Positions 20,967 through 28,044 of a stretch of 64,000 bases of DNA are shown here, one piece after another (positions within the stretch are counted from its first letter, which is position 1; each line of letters starts with the position of its first letter). The translations under genes were made by a program, and so were the position numbers. The DNA is taken from positions 2,046,001 to 2,110,000 of the forward strand of contig NZ_CP019067.1 in assembly GCF_001989615.1 (NCBI RefSeq), read 5' to 3'. A model generated the notes under the pieces. It was not told where the DNA came from, did no database searches, and saw nothing but the letters and a program-made list of their open reading frames with translations. The DNA is from Halorientalis sp. IM1011 (GTDB lineage Archaea; Halobacteriota; Halobacteria; Halobacteriales; Haloarculaceae).

Positions 20967-21416
20967 ATGTCAGCCGTCGCGTTCGACCGGGTCCTCGCGC
21001 CGCTGGACCGGAGCGAGGAGTCACTGGAGGCCGCCGAGTACGCCGTCGCCGTCGCCGAGCAGTACGGCGCGGACGTTCACGCACTGTACCTCCTCGAGGA
21101 ATCGGTCGTCCGCAGTCTGGAGTCCGGTGAACTCGAAGGCGACACCGTCGCCGACGACACCGAGGACCTCATGGAGACCGTCGATCGACTCGCGGCCGAC
21201 CACGACGTCTCGATCAGCCACTCGATGGCGCTGGGATTCGTCACGACACAGCTCACCCACCACCCCGGTAGCGTCATCCTCGACACCGCCGAGGCGGTCG
21301 ACGCCGACTTCCTCGTCGTCCCCCGGGAACCGATCTCGGGTAACCCCGACGAGGTCCTCGGCAAGGCCGCCGAGTACGTCCTCCAGTACGCCAGCCAGCC
21401 CGTCCTCTCCGTGTGA
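20967..21416 (+). CDS. Universal stress protein, UspA family
   Basis: 149 residues, Usp fold: VLAPLDRSEESLEAAEYAV at the first strand and helix, FLVVPREPISGNPDEVLGKAA in place of the usual Gly-rich ATP motif, and PVLSV at the end. The glycine motif is degenerate, so ATP binding is doubtful, unlike the divergent neighbour. The start ATG at 20967 is preferred to an upstream in-frame start because it gives a standard N-terminus. A separate transcription unit from the cluster that follows. Confidence 0.88.
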   Translation: MSAVAFDRVLAPLDRSEESLEAAEYAVAVAEQYGADVHALYLLEESVVRSLESGELEGDTVADDTEDLMETVDRLAADHDVSISHSMALGFVTTQLTHHPGSVILDTAEAVDADFLVVPREPISGNPDEVLGKAAEYVLQYASQPVLSV

Positions 21417-21560: not shown

Positions 21561-21664
21561 TTTATAATTCGGTTGCGAGGATTACCCAAACGTTTAACAT
21601 ACTCCTCAGCAAGTATGTGATACATACCGGACACGATCCGGGTATGCTAAGGGGGGTTTAGCAT
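21561..21664 (+). promoter_or_regulatory. Control region of the VirB-like cluster, three inverted repeats
   Basis: TTTATAATTC (21561-21570) and GTTTAACAT (21592-21600) are TATA candidates. Downstream are the palindrome GTATGT-GAT-ACATAC (21613-21627), a near-palindrome CATACCGG/CCGGGTATG (about 21624-21646) and ATGCTAA-(7 bases)-TTAGCAT (21644-21650 and 21658-21664), the last ending directly at the ATG of the first ORF. The stack of repeats suggests operator sites or a 5' RNA structure controlling translation. The 150 bases before it (21417-21560) show nothing definite. Confidence 0.55.
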
Positions 21665-21754
21665 ATGGGGAAGCAAGCAACGCAACACGTAGTAGAGACG
21701 TTAGTCAGTCGTACAGCTACCGGATGGAATACAGGCGCTCTGGGGGGTGCCTGA
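21665..21754 (+). CDS. 29-residue ORF leading the VirB-like cluster
   Basis: Starts at the ATG beside the inverted repeat and encodes a 29-residue peptide beginning MGKQATQHVVETLVSRTA and ending GALGGA. Its stop is one base before the ATG of the next gene, the spacing expected of translational coupling. It is neither hydrophobic nor clearly a signal peptide. It could be a leader peptide, a small subunit, or an accident; coupling and position favour real translation. Too short for confident calling. Confidence 0.4.
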   Translation: MGKQATQHVVETLVSRTATGWNTGALGGA

Positions 21755-21755
21755 G

Positions 21756-22301
21756 ATGGCCATCGACGGCGTGCGAGCTCGCCTCGGTGAGCCGTTCGTA
21801 AATCTCTGGATGACGTTCGATCGCCAGCTGTTCGCGCTCTCGCCGCGAGCGAGTCGGCTGCTGGCGATCCTCGTGGTGGCCGCGTCGGCACTCGTCGGCG
21901 TGATAATGGTCCGGGTCGCGGTTACGACGCTGATCCCGGTGGCGGCCGCACAGAACAACTCGAGCGCGGTCGGGGACGTCAACGACGTGCTGTGTGGGGG
22001 CGGTATCCCGATCGCGTCGCTCATCGGGTTCGGCGTGGCGGCCATCTCGCTGTTCCTGCTGGTCAAAGCGGTGATCCAGGGGACGGTGGCGTTCAACAAG
22101 CTCGGTTCGTCACGCGCACAGCAACAGTTCGAGGGGAAACAGGCACTCGCAGGTGCGGGGAAGACTGCGGCGGGCGCGTTCGTGCCGCCGCTGTTCGTGG
22201 CGCTCACCGATAGCGTGCTGGGGCTGGGCATCTCGAGTTGCCTCCTCGACGCCATCGGGAACGGCGCGATCCTCACGACGGCGGCGAGCCTGCCGTTCTG
22301 A
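21756..22301 (+). CDS. Membrane protein with VirB2-like topology (T4SS-type pilin candidate)
   Basis: 181 residues. A 33-residue amphipathic cytoplasmic start is followed by a hydrophobic segment (34-60) ending PVAAAQNN, which resembles a signal-peptidase site; then two membrane helices (about 84-107 and 139-158) joined by a basic Gln/Gly-rich loop (VIQGTVAFNKLGSSRAQQQF). Cys80 and Cys162 flank the helices and could pair. Long signal plus two helices with a basic cytoplasmic loop is the layout of VirB2/TrbC pilins and of archaeal Ced/Ted pilins, but no strong motif proves homology. It precedes VirB6-like and VirB4 genes, which is the main support. Confidence 0.5.
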   Translation: MAIDGVRARLGEPFVNLWMTFDRQLFALSPRASRLLAILVVAASALVGVIMVRVAVTTLIPVAAAQNNSSAVGDVNDVLCGGGIPIASLIGFGVAAISLFLLVKAVIQGTVAFNKLGSSRAQQQFEGKQALAGAGKTAAGAFVPPLFVALTDSVLGLGISSCLLDAIGNGAILTTAASLPF

Positions 22302-22438
22302 GGACGGCGAGGAGTGATCTCCGCCCCGGCCGGGAATCTGCGACGGATCCCGGCGAGCCGGTATCACGCGCCCGGGGGGTCGCCTCCGGACGGTCGAACA
22401 GCGACAGGACCGACTGCAGTTTCGGACGCATCGCACCC

Positions 22439-23851
22439 ATGAAACGCCACATATTGCTCGTGTTGGTACTCGTGACGGTCCTCGCGGGCCCCGCATCGGC
22501 CGCGACCGGTACGCTTGCCGGTCCGGCGGATGATCCTGCCACACAGCAGACCGTCGATACCGGGTTCGCCCTGCAGGACGGCACCGCGAACGAAACGAAC
22601 ACGAGCCAGAACGACTCGGAGGACACACAGAACGCGAGCGGCGACGGCGATGACGGCAATATCAGCGAGGACGATATCACGGATGCCTTCATCGGCGCGC
22701 TTTTCGGGTCGGACTCGGATTCGGACTCGGGTGACGACTCGGGTATCTTCACCTCGATCGCACAGGACGCCATCGAGGGGGCGATCCTCAGTCTGCTCGA
22801 CGGACTCGGCGAGGACGCTTCGGCGGTCGCACAGGACTTCACGGACCGGGGAATCATCTTCCGCGTCCCGGCACCGGGCGCGATGGGCGATCCGCCGACG
22901 TGGATCCAGCCTGGGGAGTGGCCCGAAACCGGCGATCACGGCGGGAAATGGCAGCAAACGTACACCTACTACTGGGTGATCGGGTTCCTCGGCTTCGCCG
23001 GGCTGCTCCCCGCGCTGATGCTCGCGCTGGGGAAGGGGAACCGGTCGCCCAATCGCGGAACGGCAAGGCGGTTCGTCCGCGGGTTCGTGTTGATCATGGC
23101 GGGCTGGGTCGTCGTCGCGTTCATTTATCACTCCGCGGACGCGGTCACGCAACTCCTCGCCCCTGCCCCGTCCGCGTACATGGAGGTTCTCGAGACGAGC
23201 AAGGACAGCGACCTGGCCGTACTCGGCCCGGTCCTCAGCGGCACAAAGGGGGGACTGCTGATGACCGCCTTCGGCGTCCTCTACATGCAGTTCGTCCTGA
23301 CGTTCGTGTGTGCGGCGCTGTGGCCCGCGATGTGGGTCCTGAACGCCTATCGGTCGACGATGGTCCGATCGGCCGGGAAGATCGGGCTGACGTTCATGGG
23401 CGCGTTGCTGATCATGAAGATGATGCAGGCACTCATCTTCCGGTTTCTCGTCGGGCTGGGGCTGACGGGGACCAGCGGCGAACTCGCGGCGACGGTCGGC
23501 ATCGCCGTCACGTTCGTCCTCCTGCCCTACACCGTGCTGGCGAAGATGATCCCGCGGACGCTGCTGATCTTCGGCATGCACGAACTCCGGGAGAAGGGCC
23601 ACGAGGACAGGCGATACCAGCAGCGGCTGGGGAACGTCCGCCGGAAGTTCAACCAGTCGCTCCGGCGCAGTCCCGACGGCGGCGTCGAACGGGTCGGGCC
23701 GGCGAGCCGTGGTCGGTCGGAACTACCCGACGGCCAGCCCCGGCGGCTGAACTCCGGTCGCTCGGACGGCGGGCGCAGCCTCCCGCGTGGCTCGGCCGGC
23801 GAGGGACCGAACCGGCGGACGGACGGCGGCGATACGGAGGACAGGAGGTAA
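22439..23851 (+). CDS. VirB6/TrbL-like polytopic membrane protein
   Basis: 470 residues. A clear signal peptide (1-22, ending GPASA) precedes an extracytoplasmic Thr/Asn/Asp-rich low-complexity region with many N-X-S/T sequons (about 23-100), then five to six membrane helices (about 180-200, 215-235, 275-305, 320-345, 350-375) and a long basic Arg/Gly/Ser-rich cytoplasmic tail from about 385. This resembles VirB6/TrbL channel subunits of type IV secretion systems. The gap of 137 bases before it has no gene; an in-frame extension upstream is Arg-rich and not protein-like. Followed after 6 bases by the VirB4 gene. Confidence 0.6.
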   Translation: MKRHILLVLVLVTVLAGPASAATGTLAGPADDPATQQTVDTGFALQDGTANETNTSQNDSEDTQNASGDGDDGNISEDDITDAFIGALFGSDSDSDSGDDSGIFTSIAQDAIEGAILSLLDGLGEDASAVAQDFTDRGIIFRVPAPGAMGDPPTWIQPGEWPETGDHGGKWQQTYTYYWVIGFLGFAGLLPALMLALGKGNRSPNRGTARRFVRGFVLIMAGWVVVAFIYHSADAVTQLLAPAPSAYMEVLETSKDSDLAVLGPVLSGTKGGLLMTAFGVLYMQFVLTFVCAALWPAMWVLNAYRSTMVRSAGKIGLTFMGALLIMKMMQALIFRFLVGLGLTGTSGELAATVGIAVTFVLLPYTVLAKMIPRTLLIFGMHELREKGHEDRRYQQRLGNVRRKFNQSLRRSPDGGVERVGPASRGRSELPDGQPRRLNSGRSDGGRSLPRGSAGEGPNRRTDGGDTEDRR

Positions 23852-23857
23852 GCACCG

Positions 23858-26800
23858 ATGTCGAACGATCTTCCACGACCGAGTGACGACAGGCGCGAAC
23901 AGCGAACCACGCGGGATCCGAGCCAGTTGATCCCGCCGTACATCGACACGTCGATCGAGATCCTCGGCCCGCTGACCACCGCGGATCTCCTCCTCTACCT
24001 GCCGGCCGGGATCGGGGCGCTGGTCGCCCTGTTCGCCCTGCTGTCGGATTCGTGGCTCTTCTTCCCGGCGCTGATCGCCGCCGGGGCGCTCACCTTCGTC
24101 GCGACAGCGGCCAAGCTCACGACCGACTGGTACTCCTCGCCGCGCGGGCGCGTCGAGGCGTGGCTCTCCCACCGGTGGCGGTCGCGGACGCTCCCCTGGG
24201 ACCACGAAGACGTCGTCGGCCGGTCGATGCCCGGGGTCCGCGGGTTCCAGCCCGAGGGGACCGCGAAGATGGACGACGGGCGCTACGTCGGCGTCGTCCG
24301 CGTCGATCCGACCAACGCTGCGCTCGGTTCCGAGCGGGAACACGACAACCTCGCGGCACAGCTGTCGAGCGTGATCGACGAGGGGATCAAGGACTTCGAC
24401 TTCAAGCTGTTCGCGACGACCGGCGACTACGACCCCGAGGCGGTCGTCGGCCAGTACGAACGGCGGGCGGCGAGCGCCGACACGCTCGATTCGGACTTCC
24501 AGACCGCGATGTACAAGCGGGAACTGCTGGAGGATGTGGCCGACTGGTACCGCGAAACCGACCGCCCCCAGTGGGCGGCCAACGACTGGCGCTACTACGT
24601 CGTCGTCGAGGTACCGCCCGAAGACGTCCAGTCGCCCGAGGACGTGAGCGTCTGGGACATGCTGAACCCGCTTTCGAGCGTCGACCCGGCGAAAGCGGAC
24701 GAGCGCCAGTACGCGACGCTGCTCGACCGGCTCTCGACGGTGGAGGGTGCCGTCGGCGGCATCACCGGCCTGAACGCGTCCCGGATCGGCGTGCGGGAAC
24801 ACATCGAACTGCTGAGCGAGTACTGGACCGGGCAGGACGCCGTGCCCAGCGAGAACCTGATCCGGGCCATCGAGGAGGAAGAACTCTCGGAGGCCCAGCA
24901 GGCCCGCATGGACGAACTGTTCGCACCCGACGACCTCGACGCGAGCGGGGACTTCCTGCAGGTCGGCGACGAGTTCTGCCGGACCTTCTGGATCGCCGAG
25001 TGGCCCGTCGAGCCCGAATCCCTGTTCCTGCGCGATCTCTTCACCCTCCGGGGCGTCGACGTGGACGTATGCTTCCACGTCGGGGCCGCGGACAAGCGGA
25101 CGAAGGTCGCGGAACTCGAACAGGTCATCGCCGACATCGAATCGGAGGGCCACGAACGCCGCGAGAGTTCCGACGTGTCCGCGGCCGACATCGACCGCGA
25201 CGTGGACGCCTACGTGAAGTACCGCGAACTCCTGCGGACGACCCGGACCCAGCCGTGGGACTTCTCCGGGTACGTCACCGTCCGGGCCGACACCGAGGCC
25301 GCGCTCAGACGCGCCGAGTCGGCCATCGAGGAGTTCGACGAGGTCGAGTTCGCCAAGCGGTCGGTCCTGGACGACGACACCGAGTCGGTCCGGGACACGC
25401 TCGAATCCTCGCCCGCGGACTGTTTCACCGTCGTCCCGACCAGCCGGCAACTGGAGGCGTTCCGCTCCGGCGCGCCGACCGGCCGGGACGCGTTCGACGA
25501 GGCCTCCCGGATGGACAAGACCACCTCCGTCCCGGGCGGAGCCGTCGGCGCGACCTTCCCCTTCTGCGGGACCGACGTGCGCGAACCGACCGGGATGGAC
25601 TGGGGGCGCAACAAGCAAAACGGCGCGATGCTCAAGGCCGATCCCTTCGAACGGGAGAGTGCGCCCCACCTGCTGACCATCGGGAAGTCCCGCAGCGGGA
25701 AGACCTACGCCTCGACGAAGGCGGCGGCCCGGTGGTACCTCCAGAGCGAGGACCACACGCTGATCCTCTGTGACACCCAGAGCGGGTTCGACGGCATCAC
25801 GAAACTGCTCGGCGGCGAACACATCGTCGTCGACGGCACCCAGACGATCAATCCGCTGGACATCCAGCCCCTCCCCGACCACATCCGGGAGTCCGCGGGC
25901 GGCCGCGTCGACCCCTACCGCATGAAGATCGAGGAGGCCACGCAGTTTTTCGCCGGCATCCTCCGCTCACAGGGGATCGACCCCGGTCCCTACGTCGCCA
26001 CCATCGAGGAGGGGCTGGAGGGCACCTACAACCGCGCGGGCATCTACCAGGACGACCTGGACAGCCACGCCCGCGAGAGCCCGACAATCGAGGACTTCAT
26101 CGACACGCTCGGGGACATGCTGGAGAACCCCGAGTCCTACACCCACACCGAACACGCCGCCGAGATCGACCAGAAGGTCGAACGGGTCAGCGACCTGCTG
26201 GACAAGCTCTCGGGGTTCAAGGAGGGCGGGAAGTACCACCACCTCGAAACCGGCGCGGGGATCATGAACCCCGACGTGGACATGGCCTATCTGGACCTCC
26301 AGCAACTCCGGGACGCAAGCGACGCCGAGAAGTCGATCATGCTCCAGCTCATGCTCGGGCAGGTCGCACAGAAGGCCAAACGGACGCGGGGCAAACTCGT
26401 GTTCATGATCGACGAGGCCCACGTCCTCTTTCACTCCGAGGAGATGACCCGTTGGCTCCAGAAGGCCGCCCGCGAGTGGGCGCGCTACGACGCCGCGCTG
26501 TGGTTCATCAGCCAGTCGCCACGGGAGTTCATCCAGCAGTCCTCGGAGCGAGACGTGGGTCAGGAGAACGAACGGCGCACTATCGTCGATCAGTGTTCGA
26601 CGATCAACTTCTTCCGGACGCCGCGGGTGGCCCCGGAGACGCTCGCGCAGTTCGGTCTCAATCGCCAGCAGATCGACTGGATCCGCGAGGAGGCCACGCC
26701 CGGGAAAGCCGGGCAGGGCTACTCGGAGTGTCTTACGTACTTCGAGGACTACGAGGGCTGGTTCCCGACCTACGTCGAGGCGTCGCCGTTCGAGGATCTG

Positions 26801-27163
26801 GTCTACAACTACACGCCGCGGGAACACGGGAACTTCCACGAGTACGTCCAGCGCCTCTGGGGACCCGTCGAGGAGGGGATCATCGTCGACGGGGAGATCA
26901 CCGTCGATCCGAGCGTCCCTCTGACCGACTCCCGGACCGCGGAGGCGGCGCCGGTCACCGACGGCAAGGGACAGGATCCCGGGAACGCGTCGACGCTGGA
27001 ACCGCCCGAACCCGAGGACGTGACGGCCGATCCGTTCGACCCCGGGCTCGACGACGGGCCGGACGGATCGACGACGGCGGCCGCGGCCGATCCCAACGGG
27101 ACGCCCCCGTGGCTCGAAGCCGACGACGACGAACCGGACCCGGACGACGTCGACCTATTTTAG
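23858..27163 (+). CDS. VirB4-family transfer ATPase with N-terminal VirB3-like membrane part
   Basis: 1101 residues. Residues 27-90 hold a VirB3/PrgI-like segment: YIDTSIEILGPLTTADLL and two membrane helices (about 45-85). A VirB4 N-terminal domain follows, then the HerA/VirB4 ATPase domain with Walker A GKSRSGKT at about 609-616, Walker B LVFMIDEAHVL near 848-858, and Gln/Arg-finger regions (WFISQSPREF). The C-terminal 120 residues are acidic and disordered. It would power substrate or pilin movement through the VirB6-like channel. No relaxase or VirD4 is adjacent, so it is not an ordinary conjugative element. The ATPase identification is strong; the transported substrate is unknown. Confidence 0.88.
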   Translation: MSNDLPRPSDDRREQRTTRDPSQLIPPYIDTSIEILGPLTTADLLLYLPAGIGALVALFALLSDSWLFFPALIAAGALTFVATAAKLTTDWYSSPRGRVEAWLSHRWRSRTLPWDHEDVVGRSMPGVRGFQPEGTAKMDDGRYVGVVRVDPTNAALGSEREHDNLAAQLSSVIDEGIKDFDFKLFATTGDYDPEAVVGQYERRAASADTLDSDFQTAMYKRELLEDVADWYRETDRPQWAANDWRYYVVVEVPPEDVQSPEDVSVWDMLNPLSSVDPAKADERQYATLLDRLSTVEGAVGGITGLNASRIGVREHIELLSEYWTGQDAVPSENLIRAIEEEELSEAQQARMDELFAPDDLDASGDFLQVGDEFCRTFWIAEWPVEPESLFLRDLFTLRGVDVDVCFHVGAADKRTKVAELEQVIADIESEGHERRESSDVSAADIDRDVDAYVKYRELLRTTRTQPWDFSGYVTVRADTEAALRRAESAIEEFDEVEFAKRSVLDDDTESVRDTLESSPADCFTVVPTSRQLEAFRSGAPTGRDAFDEASRMDKTTSVPGGAVGATFPFCGTDVREPTGMDWGRNKQNGAMLKADPFERESAPHLLTIGKSRSGKTYASTKAAARWYLQSEDHTLILCDTQSGFDGITKLLGGEHIVVDGTQTINPLDIQPLPDHIRESAGGRVDPYRMKIEEATQFFAGILRSQGIDPGPYVATIEEGLEGTYNRAGIYQDDLDSHARESPTIEDFIDTLGDMLENPESYTHTEHAAEIDQKVERVSDLLDKLSGFKEGGKYHHLETGAGIMNPDVDMAYLDLQQLRDASDAEKSIMLQLMLGQVAQKAKRTRGKLVFMIDEAHVLFHSEEMTRWLQKAAREWARYDAALWFISQSPREFIQQSSERDVGQENERRTIVDQCSTINFFRTPRVAPETLAQFGLNRQQIDWIREEATPGKAGQGYSECLTYFEDYEGWFPTYVEASPFEDLVYNYTPREHGNFHEYVQRLWGPVEEGIIVDGEITVDPSVPLTDSRTAEAAPVTDGKGQDPGNASTLEPPEPEDVTADPFDPGLDDGPDGSTTAAAADPNGTPPWLEADDDEPDPDDVDLF

Positions 27164-27679
27164 GGTGATCGCCATCTCCAGTTCGAAACTCTCGGTGCTG
27201 GTCATGTCGAAGCCGACTTTCTTGTAGACCGCGATGGCCGGATCGTTCCAGCGCTCGACGGTGAGCCAGACGTACTGGACGCCCTCGTCCTGTGCGTGAC
27301 CCAGCAGGTGTTCCAGCAGGTGGGTGCCGATGCCCGCGCCCTGGTAGCTCCGGAGGACGAAGATCGCCAGTTCGTAGCTCTCGCCCTCGTCGGGGACGAG
27401 CGTGGCGTGCCCGATCGGTTCGTCGTCGTGGAGCGCGACGACGTTCAGGCACTCATCGGAGAGCAACACGTCGAGCCAGTCGCGGATCGGCTCCTCGCGG
27501 ACCGGAGGGATCCCCTGTGCGCGGTCCTCGGCCTCGAAGTCGAGGTACATCTCGACGAGCGCTTCCGTGTCGTCGGCCCCGCCCGGGCGGATCTGGATCT
27601 CGCGCCCGTCGCCGTCGGTGACGGTGTCGGGCGGACTCGGGAACTCGCCGGCGGGTTCGTCGGGATACTCGCGGGTCAT
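27155..27679 (-). CDS. GNAT-family N-acetyltransferase
   Basis: 174 residues. After a short acidic lead the GNAT domain runs from IQIRPGGADDTEALVEMY to the end, with the acetyl-CoA binding motif RSYQGAGIGTHLLEHLL (Q/R-x2-G-x-G/A) and the C-terminal NDPAIAVYKKVGFD motif. The start ATG at 27679 overlaps the preceding Usp gene stop by 4 bases (ATGA), so the two are one transcript. Its 3' end overlaps the convergent VirB4 gene by 9 bases. Substrate unknown. Confidence 0.9.
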   Translation of the reverse strand: MTREYPDEPAGEFPSPPDTVTDGDGREIQIRPGGADDTEALVEMYLDFEAEDRAQGIPPVREEPIRDWLDVLLSDECLNVVALHDDEPIGHATLVPDEGESYELAIFVLRSYQGAGIGTHLLEHLLGHAQDEGVQYVWLTVERWNDPAIAVYKKVGFDMTSTESFELEMAITLK

Positions 27680-28044
27680 CTGACGAGAGTCACCGTCGTT
27701 TCGGCGTTCAGCAGGACGAACTCCAGTGTCTCGTCGAAGTTGATCTTCCCGAGCGGGCTGCGTTCGCCGCCGGCGACGACCAGTCGGTCGAACTGCTCCT
27801 GCTCGGCGAGTTCGACCAGTCGACTGCCGGGATGACCGGAGAGGTGCCTGATGTCGGGTTCCAGTCCGGTCTCGGCCAGTCGCTCGCGGACCTCGGTCTC
27901 GATCTCCGACGGCGTGAGCGCGATGTCCTCGCGGTCGATGATGGCGACCGTCACCTCGTCGCCGGCTTCCTCGGCCCGTGTGACCGTGTCGGCGAGCGCC
28001 TCGTACGATCCGTCGCTGCCGCCGATCCCCAGCAGCACTTTCAT
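27676..28044 (-). CDS. Universal stress protein, short UspA-family member
   Basis: 122 residues: MKVLLGIGGSDGSYEALADTV at the N-terminus, RLVVAGGERSPLGKINFDET in the nucleotide motif region and a final TTVTLVR strand. The glycine motif is partly kept. An in-frame ATG-free extension upstream was rejected because MKVLLGIG is the typical beta-1 start. First gene of a two-gene unit with the overlapping GNAT gene. Confidence 0.88.
   Translation of the reverse strand: MKVLLGIGGSDGSYEALADTVTRAEEAGDEVTVAIIDREDIALTPSEIETEVRERLAETGLEPDIRHLSGHPGSRLVELAEQEQFDRLVVAGGERSPLGKINFDETLEFVLLNAETTVTLVR

Follow-up and report, generated by a model that had tools for sequence, protein, structure and literature searches.

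Ced and Ted are chromosomal DNA-import systems built from VirB2-, VirB6- and VirB4-like proteins (PMC9905601, PMC11868833). Ted, from the Thermoproteales (TedA/TedB/TedC; PMC9905601), is a set of VirB6-, VirB4- and VirB2-like proteins without a relaxase; Ced, from the Sulfolobales (CedA, A1, A2, B, D, E; PMC11868833), follows a VirB4/VirB6/pilin-like logic and is also chromosomal and free of a relaxase. No haloarchaeal system of this kind was found in the open-access literature. The locus described here has a comparable make-up and belongs to Halorientalis sp. IM1011, a haloarchaeon with a 3.78 Mb genome that stands closest, among named species, to Halorientalis regularis, H. pallida and H. 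persicus; it was analysed in a window of 64,000 nucleotides (the whole stretch, positions 2,046,001 to 2,110,000 of contig NZ_CP019067.1). At 21,589-27,163 of this window, one operon on the + strand joins a candidate promoter and leader, an open reading frame (ORF) of 29 aa, a pilin, a VirB6/TrbL-type channel protein and VirB4. This cassette would be a minimal type IV secretion system (T4SS) that is independent of VirD4, twice domesticated and analogous to Ced and Ted, most likely serving DNA uptake or exchange, a reading to which we give about an even chance.

The five Halorientalis species that carry the cassette (G000, the window genome, with G002, G004, G005 and G006) have at this locus a chromosomal VirB2/VirB6/VirB4-like set with no VirD4 and no recognised relaxase, which is the make-up of Ced and Ted. 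The pilin shares with TedC an AxA|Q signal-peptidase site (AVA|QA in TedC, PMC9905601; predicted in the cassette). Unlike Ted, the cassette derives from haloarchaeal plasmid modules and has no HerA, Rad50 or ParA neighbours. In Ced, the VirB4 function is split between CedB and CedD and the pilins are unprocessed, whereas the cassette has one intact VirB4 and a pilin with a signal peptide (PMC11868833).

Among haloarchaeal systems, plasmid transfer modules (pHGLR3, KLK7, Haladaptatus, Halalkalicoccus jeotgali) have homologous pilin, VirB6 and VirB4 genes in identical order; unlike the cassette they are plasmid-borne, with VirD4 downstream and, in some, a winged helix-turn-helix regulator or a twin-arginine translocation (TAT) β-helix lipoprotein upstream. 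The T4SS of haloarchaeal integrative mobilizable and conjugative elements (Fsx1-type, PMC9259645; TrbL_3 family) hold distant homologues of VirB4 and VirB6; the published Fsx1-type elements are mobile, with VirD4 and recombinases (PMC9259645), and those seen here differ from the cassette in having VirB4 in two ORFs. Two such T4SS elements with a TrbL_3 VirB6 lie at about 1.00 and 2.28 Mb of C1 in the window genome (L044, L045); their VirB4 is divided between an N-terminal ORF of about 340 aa and one of about 700 aa for the ATPase, an arrangement widespread in haloarchaea.

An earlier note on this DNA, made from the letters alone, had described four ORFs in one direction in a chromosome-like housekeeping setting, three of them of VirB2/VirB6/VirB4 type. 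All four are present on the + strand, the arrangement is Ted-like, and the identities now have the support of NCBIfam, a PDB profile and links to PF18895 and PF19590. As for the note's idea of a haloarchaeal Ced/Ted equivalent, what is supported is an analogous make-up, with an origin in plasmid conjugation modules, rather than orthology to Ced or Ted.

Products of the cassette and its leader

VirB4 (23,858-27,163; 1,101 aa) has its best NCBIfam match in VirB4_plasma (E 1.5e-31), each NCBIfam VirB4 model scoring below its own curated cut-off, and the profile of its family finds the solved VirB4 ATPase domain (PDB 4ag5/4ag6, E 1.1e-14). The Walker A motif GKSRSGKT (K615 invariant) and the DEAH motif (D852 and E853 invariant) are kept in 11 relatives, as befits a VirB4-type ATPase with intact catalytic motifs. 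Two hydrophobic segments, residues 44-62 and 67-85, may form a fused VirB3-like anchor. A profile search of the genome for Pfam PF03135 gave no match. The NCBIfam model of CedD reaches only E 0.0098 against VirB4, far below its cut-off, and viral contigs searched with four VirB4 profiles held no relatives. A lone truncated VirB4 in another genus (L121:8839-10161; G305 contig 15), which keeps the C-terminal part only and is about 59% identical to that of the window, looks like a decayed relative.

Regarding the VirB6/TrbL-type protein (22,439-23,851; 470 aa), it has a signal peptide followed by at least five further hydrophobic segments, an extracellular N-terminal part, an APG...W motif and an Arg-rich C-terminal tail. 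The protein has no direct Pfam match, and its assignment as a polytopic channel protein is indirect, through TrbL_3 relatives: BLAST ties it to integrated-element genes in G000 and G006 that match Pfam TrbL_3 (VirB6; 4.5e-24 and 2e-16), and a profile-profile comparison with TrbL_3 (PF19590) proteins by hhalign gave E 5.5e-16 over 214 columns.

The pilin precursor (21,756-22,301; 181 aa) contains three hydrophobic segments; a signal-peptidase-like site, VAAA|Q, located by inspection, comes after the first of them. Across its family, the signal segment ends in AxAQ, two Cys are invariant, and a positively charged loop lies between the two mature helices; in Halorientalis there is almost no change in the helix-loop-helix and more at the ends, a pattern that would suit a pilin with its loop towards the lumen. 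The window pilin has no direct Pfam match, and its place among VirB2-type two-helix pilins with a cleavable signal is reached through relatives. Pfam T4SS_pilin (PF18895) matches 6 of 16 family members, at best with 0.0031; in six related genomes (G012, G360, G383, G242, G019, G260) this gene is the top T4SS_pilin match of the whole genome. In addition, hhalign aligns the mature part of the pilin profile (E 6.5e-11) with a pilin that belongs to a different T4SS of this genome and is itself above the PF18895 cut-off.

Upstream of the pilin, the 29-aa ORF (MGKQATQHVVETLVSRTATGWNTGALGGA; 21,665-21,754, + strand) ends one base before the pilin ATG, and an SD-like (Shine-Dalgarno-like) GGGGGGT precedes each ORF. 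Its frame and stop are kept in the five species despite in-frame indels. This, together with the shared gene order and site and the purifying selection described below, argues that the cassette ORFs are not chance frames. A TATA-like element, AACGTTTAACAT (21,589-21,600, + strand), is the candidate promoter core, and the block AACGTTTA upstream of the leader, kept in the five species with one mismatch in G006, may be the promoter. Two overlapping inverted repeats follow. The first, CATACCGG...CCGGGTATG (21,623-21,646), has arms conserved in the five species and is a candidate operator or hairpin of the 5′ untranslated region. The second, TATGCTAA-GGGGGG-TTTAGCATA (21,643-21,665), forms the palindrome TATGCTAAGGGGGGTTTAGCATA, invariant in the five species and the only such site in the genome when up to 2 mismatches are allowed; as a hairpin it would put the SD-like G-run in the loop, with the leader start codon at the stem end. 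The RNA fold of 21,610-21,700 has a z of -2.4. Across the five species, both repeats and the opening part of the 29-aa ORF hardly vary, less than the pilin does; this conservation, the unique palindrome and the hairpin fold point to tight control of the cassette through its leader. The spacer between pilin and VirB6 folds no better than shuffles and matches no Rfam family.

Descent from plasmid modules and fixation in the chromosome

VirB4 relatives were sought in 394 Halobacteria genomes and plasmid records, and the closest ones outside Halorientalis are mostly plasmid-borne. Haloferax gibbonsii pHGLR3, Haloterrigena KLK7 and Haladaptatus have modules of pilin, VirB6 and VirB4 in which VirD4 is the next gene or the next but one; in a Halalkalicoccus jeotgali plasmid, VirD4 is about 3.5 kb downstream. 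In the VirB4 tree, the Halorientalis clade is nested among such plasmid genes. Since the modules closest to the cassette outside the genus are plasmid-borne, share its gene order and go on to VirD4, descent from plasmid conjugation is indicated; on gene content and phylogeny, the cassette appears to be a plasmid conjugation module domesticated on the chromosome. In the Haloferax module, VirD4 (1,304 aa, L054:17916-21827) looks like a fusion of protein X (350 aa) with VirD4; the two are separate genes in Haladaptatus (L057:18195-22121).

A related chromosomal cassette without adjacent VirD4 is present in four genomes of the Halocatena/Actinarchaeum group, with a VirB4 about 45% identical to that of the window; three of these cassettes adjoin proteasome-alpha, and the fourth adjoins ribosomal protein genes. 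Their VirB4 proteins form a clade of their own, parted from that of Halorientalis by plasmid genes with VirD4, a topology which suggests that chromosomal capture probably happened at least twice. The Halocatena cassettes keep a divergent TAT lipoprotein, possibly a β-helix (Pfam 0.00081, below cut-off; L035:4072-6402), and a divergent lipoprotein with a TAT signal adjoins the Halalkalicoccus plasmid module (L056:11145-12428); the TAT protein, absent in Halorientalis, is possibly a surface part.

In Halorientalis the site is fixed: in all five carriers the cassette is flanked by an identical succession of genes and lies between a universal stress protein gene, uspA (20,967-21,416, + strand), and a convergent GNAT acetyltransferase gene (27,155-27,700, - strand; Pfam Acetyltransf_1 2e-22, and synteny), which overlaps VirB4 by 9 bp, stop over stop. 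The sister genome G001, in which uspA and GNAT are directly adjacent, shows the empty site; in G003 a different insert occupies it, and the G008 contig stops close to uspA, in a genome that has no VirB4 match. The wider neighbourhood, which the earlier note called housekeeping, consists of two uspA genes, a DHH-family gene, GNAT and pyrC, and the synteny check that it had proposed finds the four-gene block at this one site in five species.

The VirB4 tree of the carriers branches as the species tree of flanking core proteins, which was rebuilt without the distant G007 after a first version that included it was unresolved. Gene phylogeny and synteny thus fit a single gain that predates the split of G006, followed by vertical descent, with one loss or an assembly gap in G008. 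The ratio of nonsynonymous to synonymous substitutions (dN/dS) of VirB4 is 0.14-0.17, equal to that of the housekeeping neighbours; pilin and VirB6 evolve faster, at 0.29-0.44. GC at third codon positions is like the host core in VirB4 and slightly lower in pilin and VirB6.

Coupling protein, function and rival explanations

None of the five species has VirD4, the coupling protein of conjugative T4SS, beside the cassette, as the earlier note had seen in one. No VirD4 of the plasmid type occurs in G004, G005 or G383, and G360 shows just a marginal, partial match; in three of the five carriers, a close VirD4 is lacking except within other T4SS elements. From the lack of VirD4 and relaxase, the note had argued against a plasmid conjugation module. 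The first absence stands; no relaxase was seen beside the cassette either, but this carries no weight because none has been recognised on archaeal conjugative plasmids, of which VirB4 and VirD4 are the sole parts recognised so far (PMC12857230). The note had also held that relaxase, VirD4 and an integrase within a few kb in relatives would refute its idea, and this is partly so, since the Haloferax, Haloterrigena, Haladaptatus and Halalkalicoccus plasmid modules carry VirD4.

Under the proposed mechanism, the host would have captured a minimal T4SS from a haloarchaeal conjugative plasmid and retained it on the chromosome. The pilin would be processed by signal peptidase and assembled into a conjugative-type pilus, the VirB6-like protein would be the membrane channel, and VirB4, anchored by its own VirB3-like helices, would power pilin assembly and DNA translocation; the conserved and unusual leader would probably switch the cassette on in particular conditions. 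The machine would work in uptake or cell-to-cell exchange, as Ced and Ted do, because VirD4, the feeder of outgoing substrates, is absent beside it. DNA uptake or exchange is favoured since pilus, channel and motor are present and under selection, the selector of outgoing substrates is missing, and Ced and Ted import DNA. The ComB system of Helicobacter, a T4SS for DNA uptake without VirD4 or relaxase, is a comparison of working and not of kinship; unlike the cassette, it is bacterial and spans an outer membrane with VirB7-10.

Several observations weigh against DNA uptake or exchange independent of VirD4. G002 and G006 have a pair of genes for X and VirD4 at another chromosomal site, between a spermidine-synthase-like gene (speE-like) and queC (L090:7140-10450 and L091:7657-10817, respectively; Pfam TraG-D_C 8.1e-8 and 3.7e-8), and distant VirD4-like genes, mostly in other elements, occur in all five carriers. 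The cassette has no linked gene for a partner in DNA processing (nuclease, helicase), and cassette-free sister species do well without it. Finally, structure models lend the pilin and channel folds no support: AlphaFold predictions of the VirB6 core and the mature pilin (four Halorientalis sequences) were unusable (pLDDT 43 and 49, pTM about 0.3). PDB profile searches with pilin and VirB6 alignments returned nothing relevant.

The orphan pair and the distant VirD4-like genes make a coupling protein in trans possible. The cassette could then be a chromosomal mating apparatus working in export, which mobilises chromosomal DNA or resident plasmids and integrative mobilizable elements out of the cell; we consider this unlikely, although it is the strongest rival. 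The plasmid ancestors used VirD4, and the orphan pair, with a dN/dS of 0.28-0.31, is found in carriers only. The window genome has further VirD4 genes in other elements, one of them an additional and apparently complete T4SS at about 471-483 kb of C1 (L046:3844-15555), with a T4SS_pilin above the Pfam cut-off, VirB4, protein X and a VirD4 44% identical to that of the Haladaptatus plasmid. However, elements with other VirD4s generally have their own VirB4, and G000, G004 and G005 lack the orphan pair (speE-like and queC are about 300 bp apart there, as in G008), yet selection on their cassette is no different. The pair may be a relic, or a partner that acts in trans; because two carriers keep it unlinked, only some of the species are fully VirD4-independent.

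A role without DNA, in protein secretion, contact-dependent antagonism or as an adhesion pilus, seems less probable still. The surface-exposed parts (the pilin ends and the extracellular N-terminus of VirB6) diverge fastest, as such a role might predict, and T4SSs elsewhere have repeatedly been converted to effector export; yet a T4SS that exports effectors ordinarily requires VirD4, and genes for effectors or immunity are absent next to the cassette in all five species.

The two remaining readings were rejected on synteny and selection and are both very improbable. A still-mobile integrative element, or its transfer module, would suit the homologous modules on plasmids, but the inserted 5.7 kb holds no integrase, its position is identical in five species, the gene tree equals the species tree, and the empty site differs by the cassette alone. 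A decaying remnant of an integrated plasmid, suggested by the absence from G008 and the VirB4 fragment in G305, conflicts with the low dN/dS of VirB4 and with ORFs, a leader and catalytic residues that are intact in five species.

In conclusion, haloarchaea exchange DNA freely, and a dedicated, cell-encoded transfer machine for them is undescribed in the open-access literature found. Pilin and VirB6-type partners, missing so far from haloarchaeal modules, are now identified beyond VirB4 and VirD4, and two separate captures by chromosomes, each with no coupling protein alongside, are indicated. It is tentatively proposed, at slightly under even odds, that plasmid conjugation modules were twice, independently, converted in haloarchaea into chromosomal machines for DNA exchange that need no VirD4 and are the counterpart there of Ced and Ted, and that Halorientalis keeps stages of this change, with cassette and unlinked VirD4 in G002 and G006 and the cassette alone in G000, G004 and G005. 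If the cassette imports DNA, conjugation would have been domesticated for DNA exchange repeatedly in archaea, also outside the Crenarchaea, and this could be tested in culturable species.

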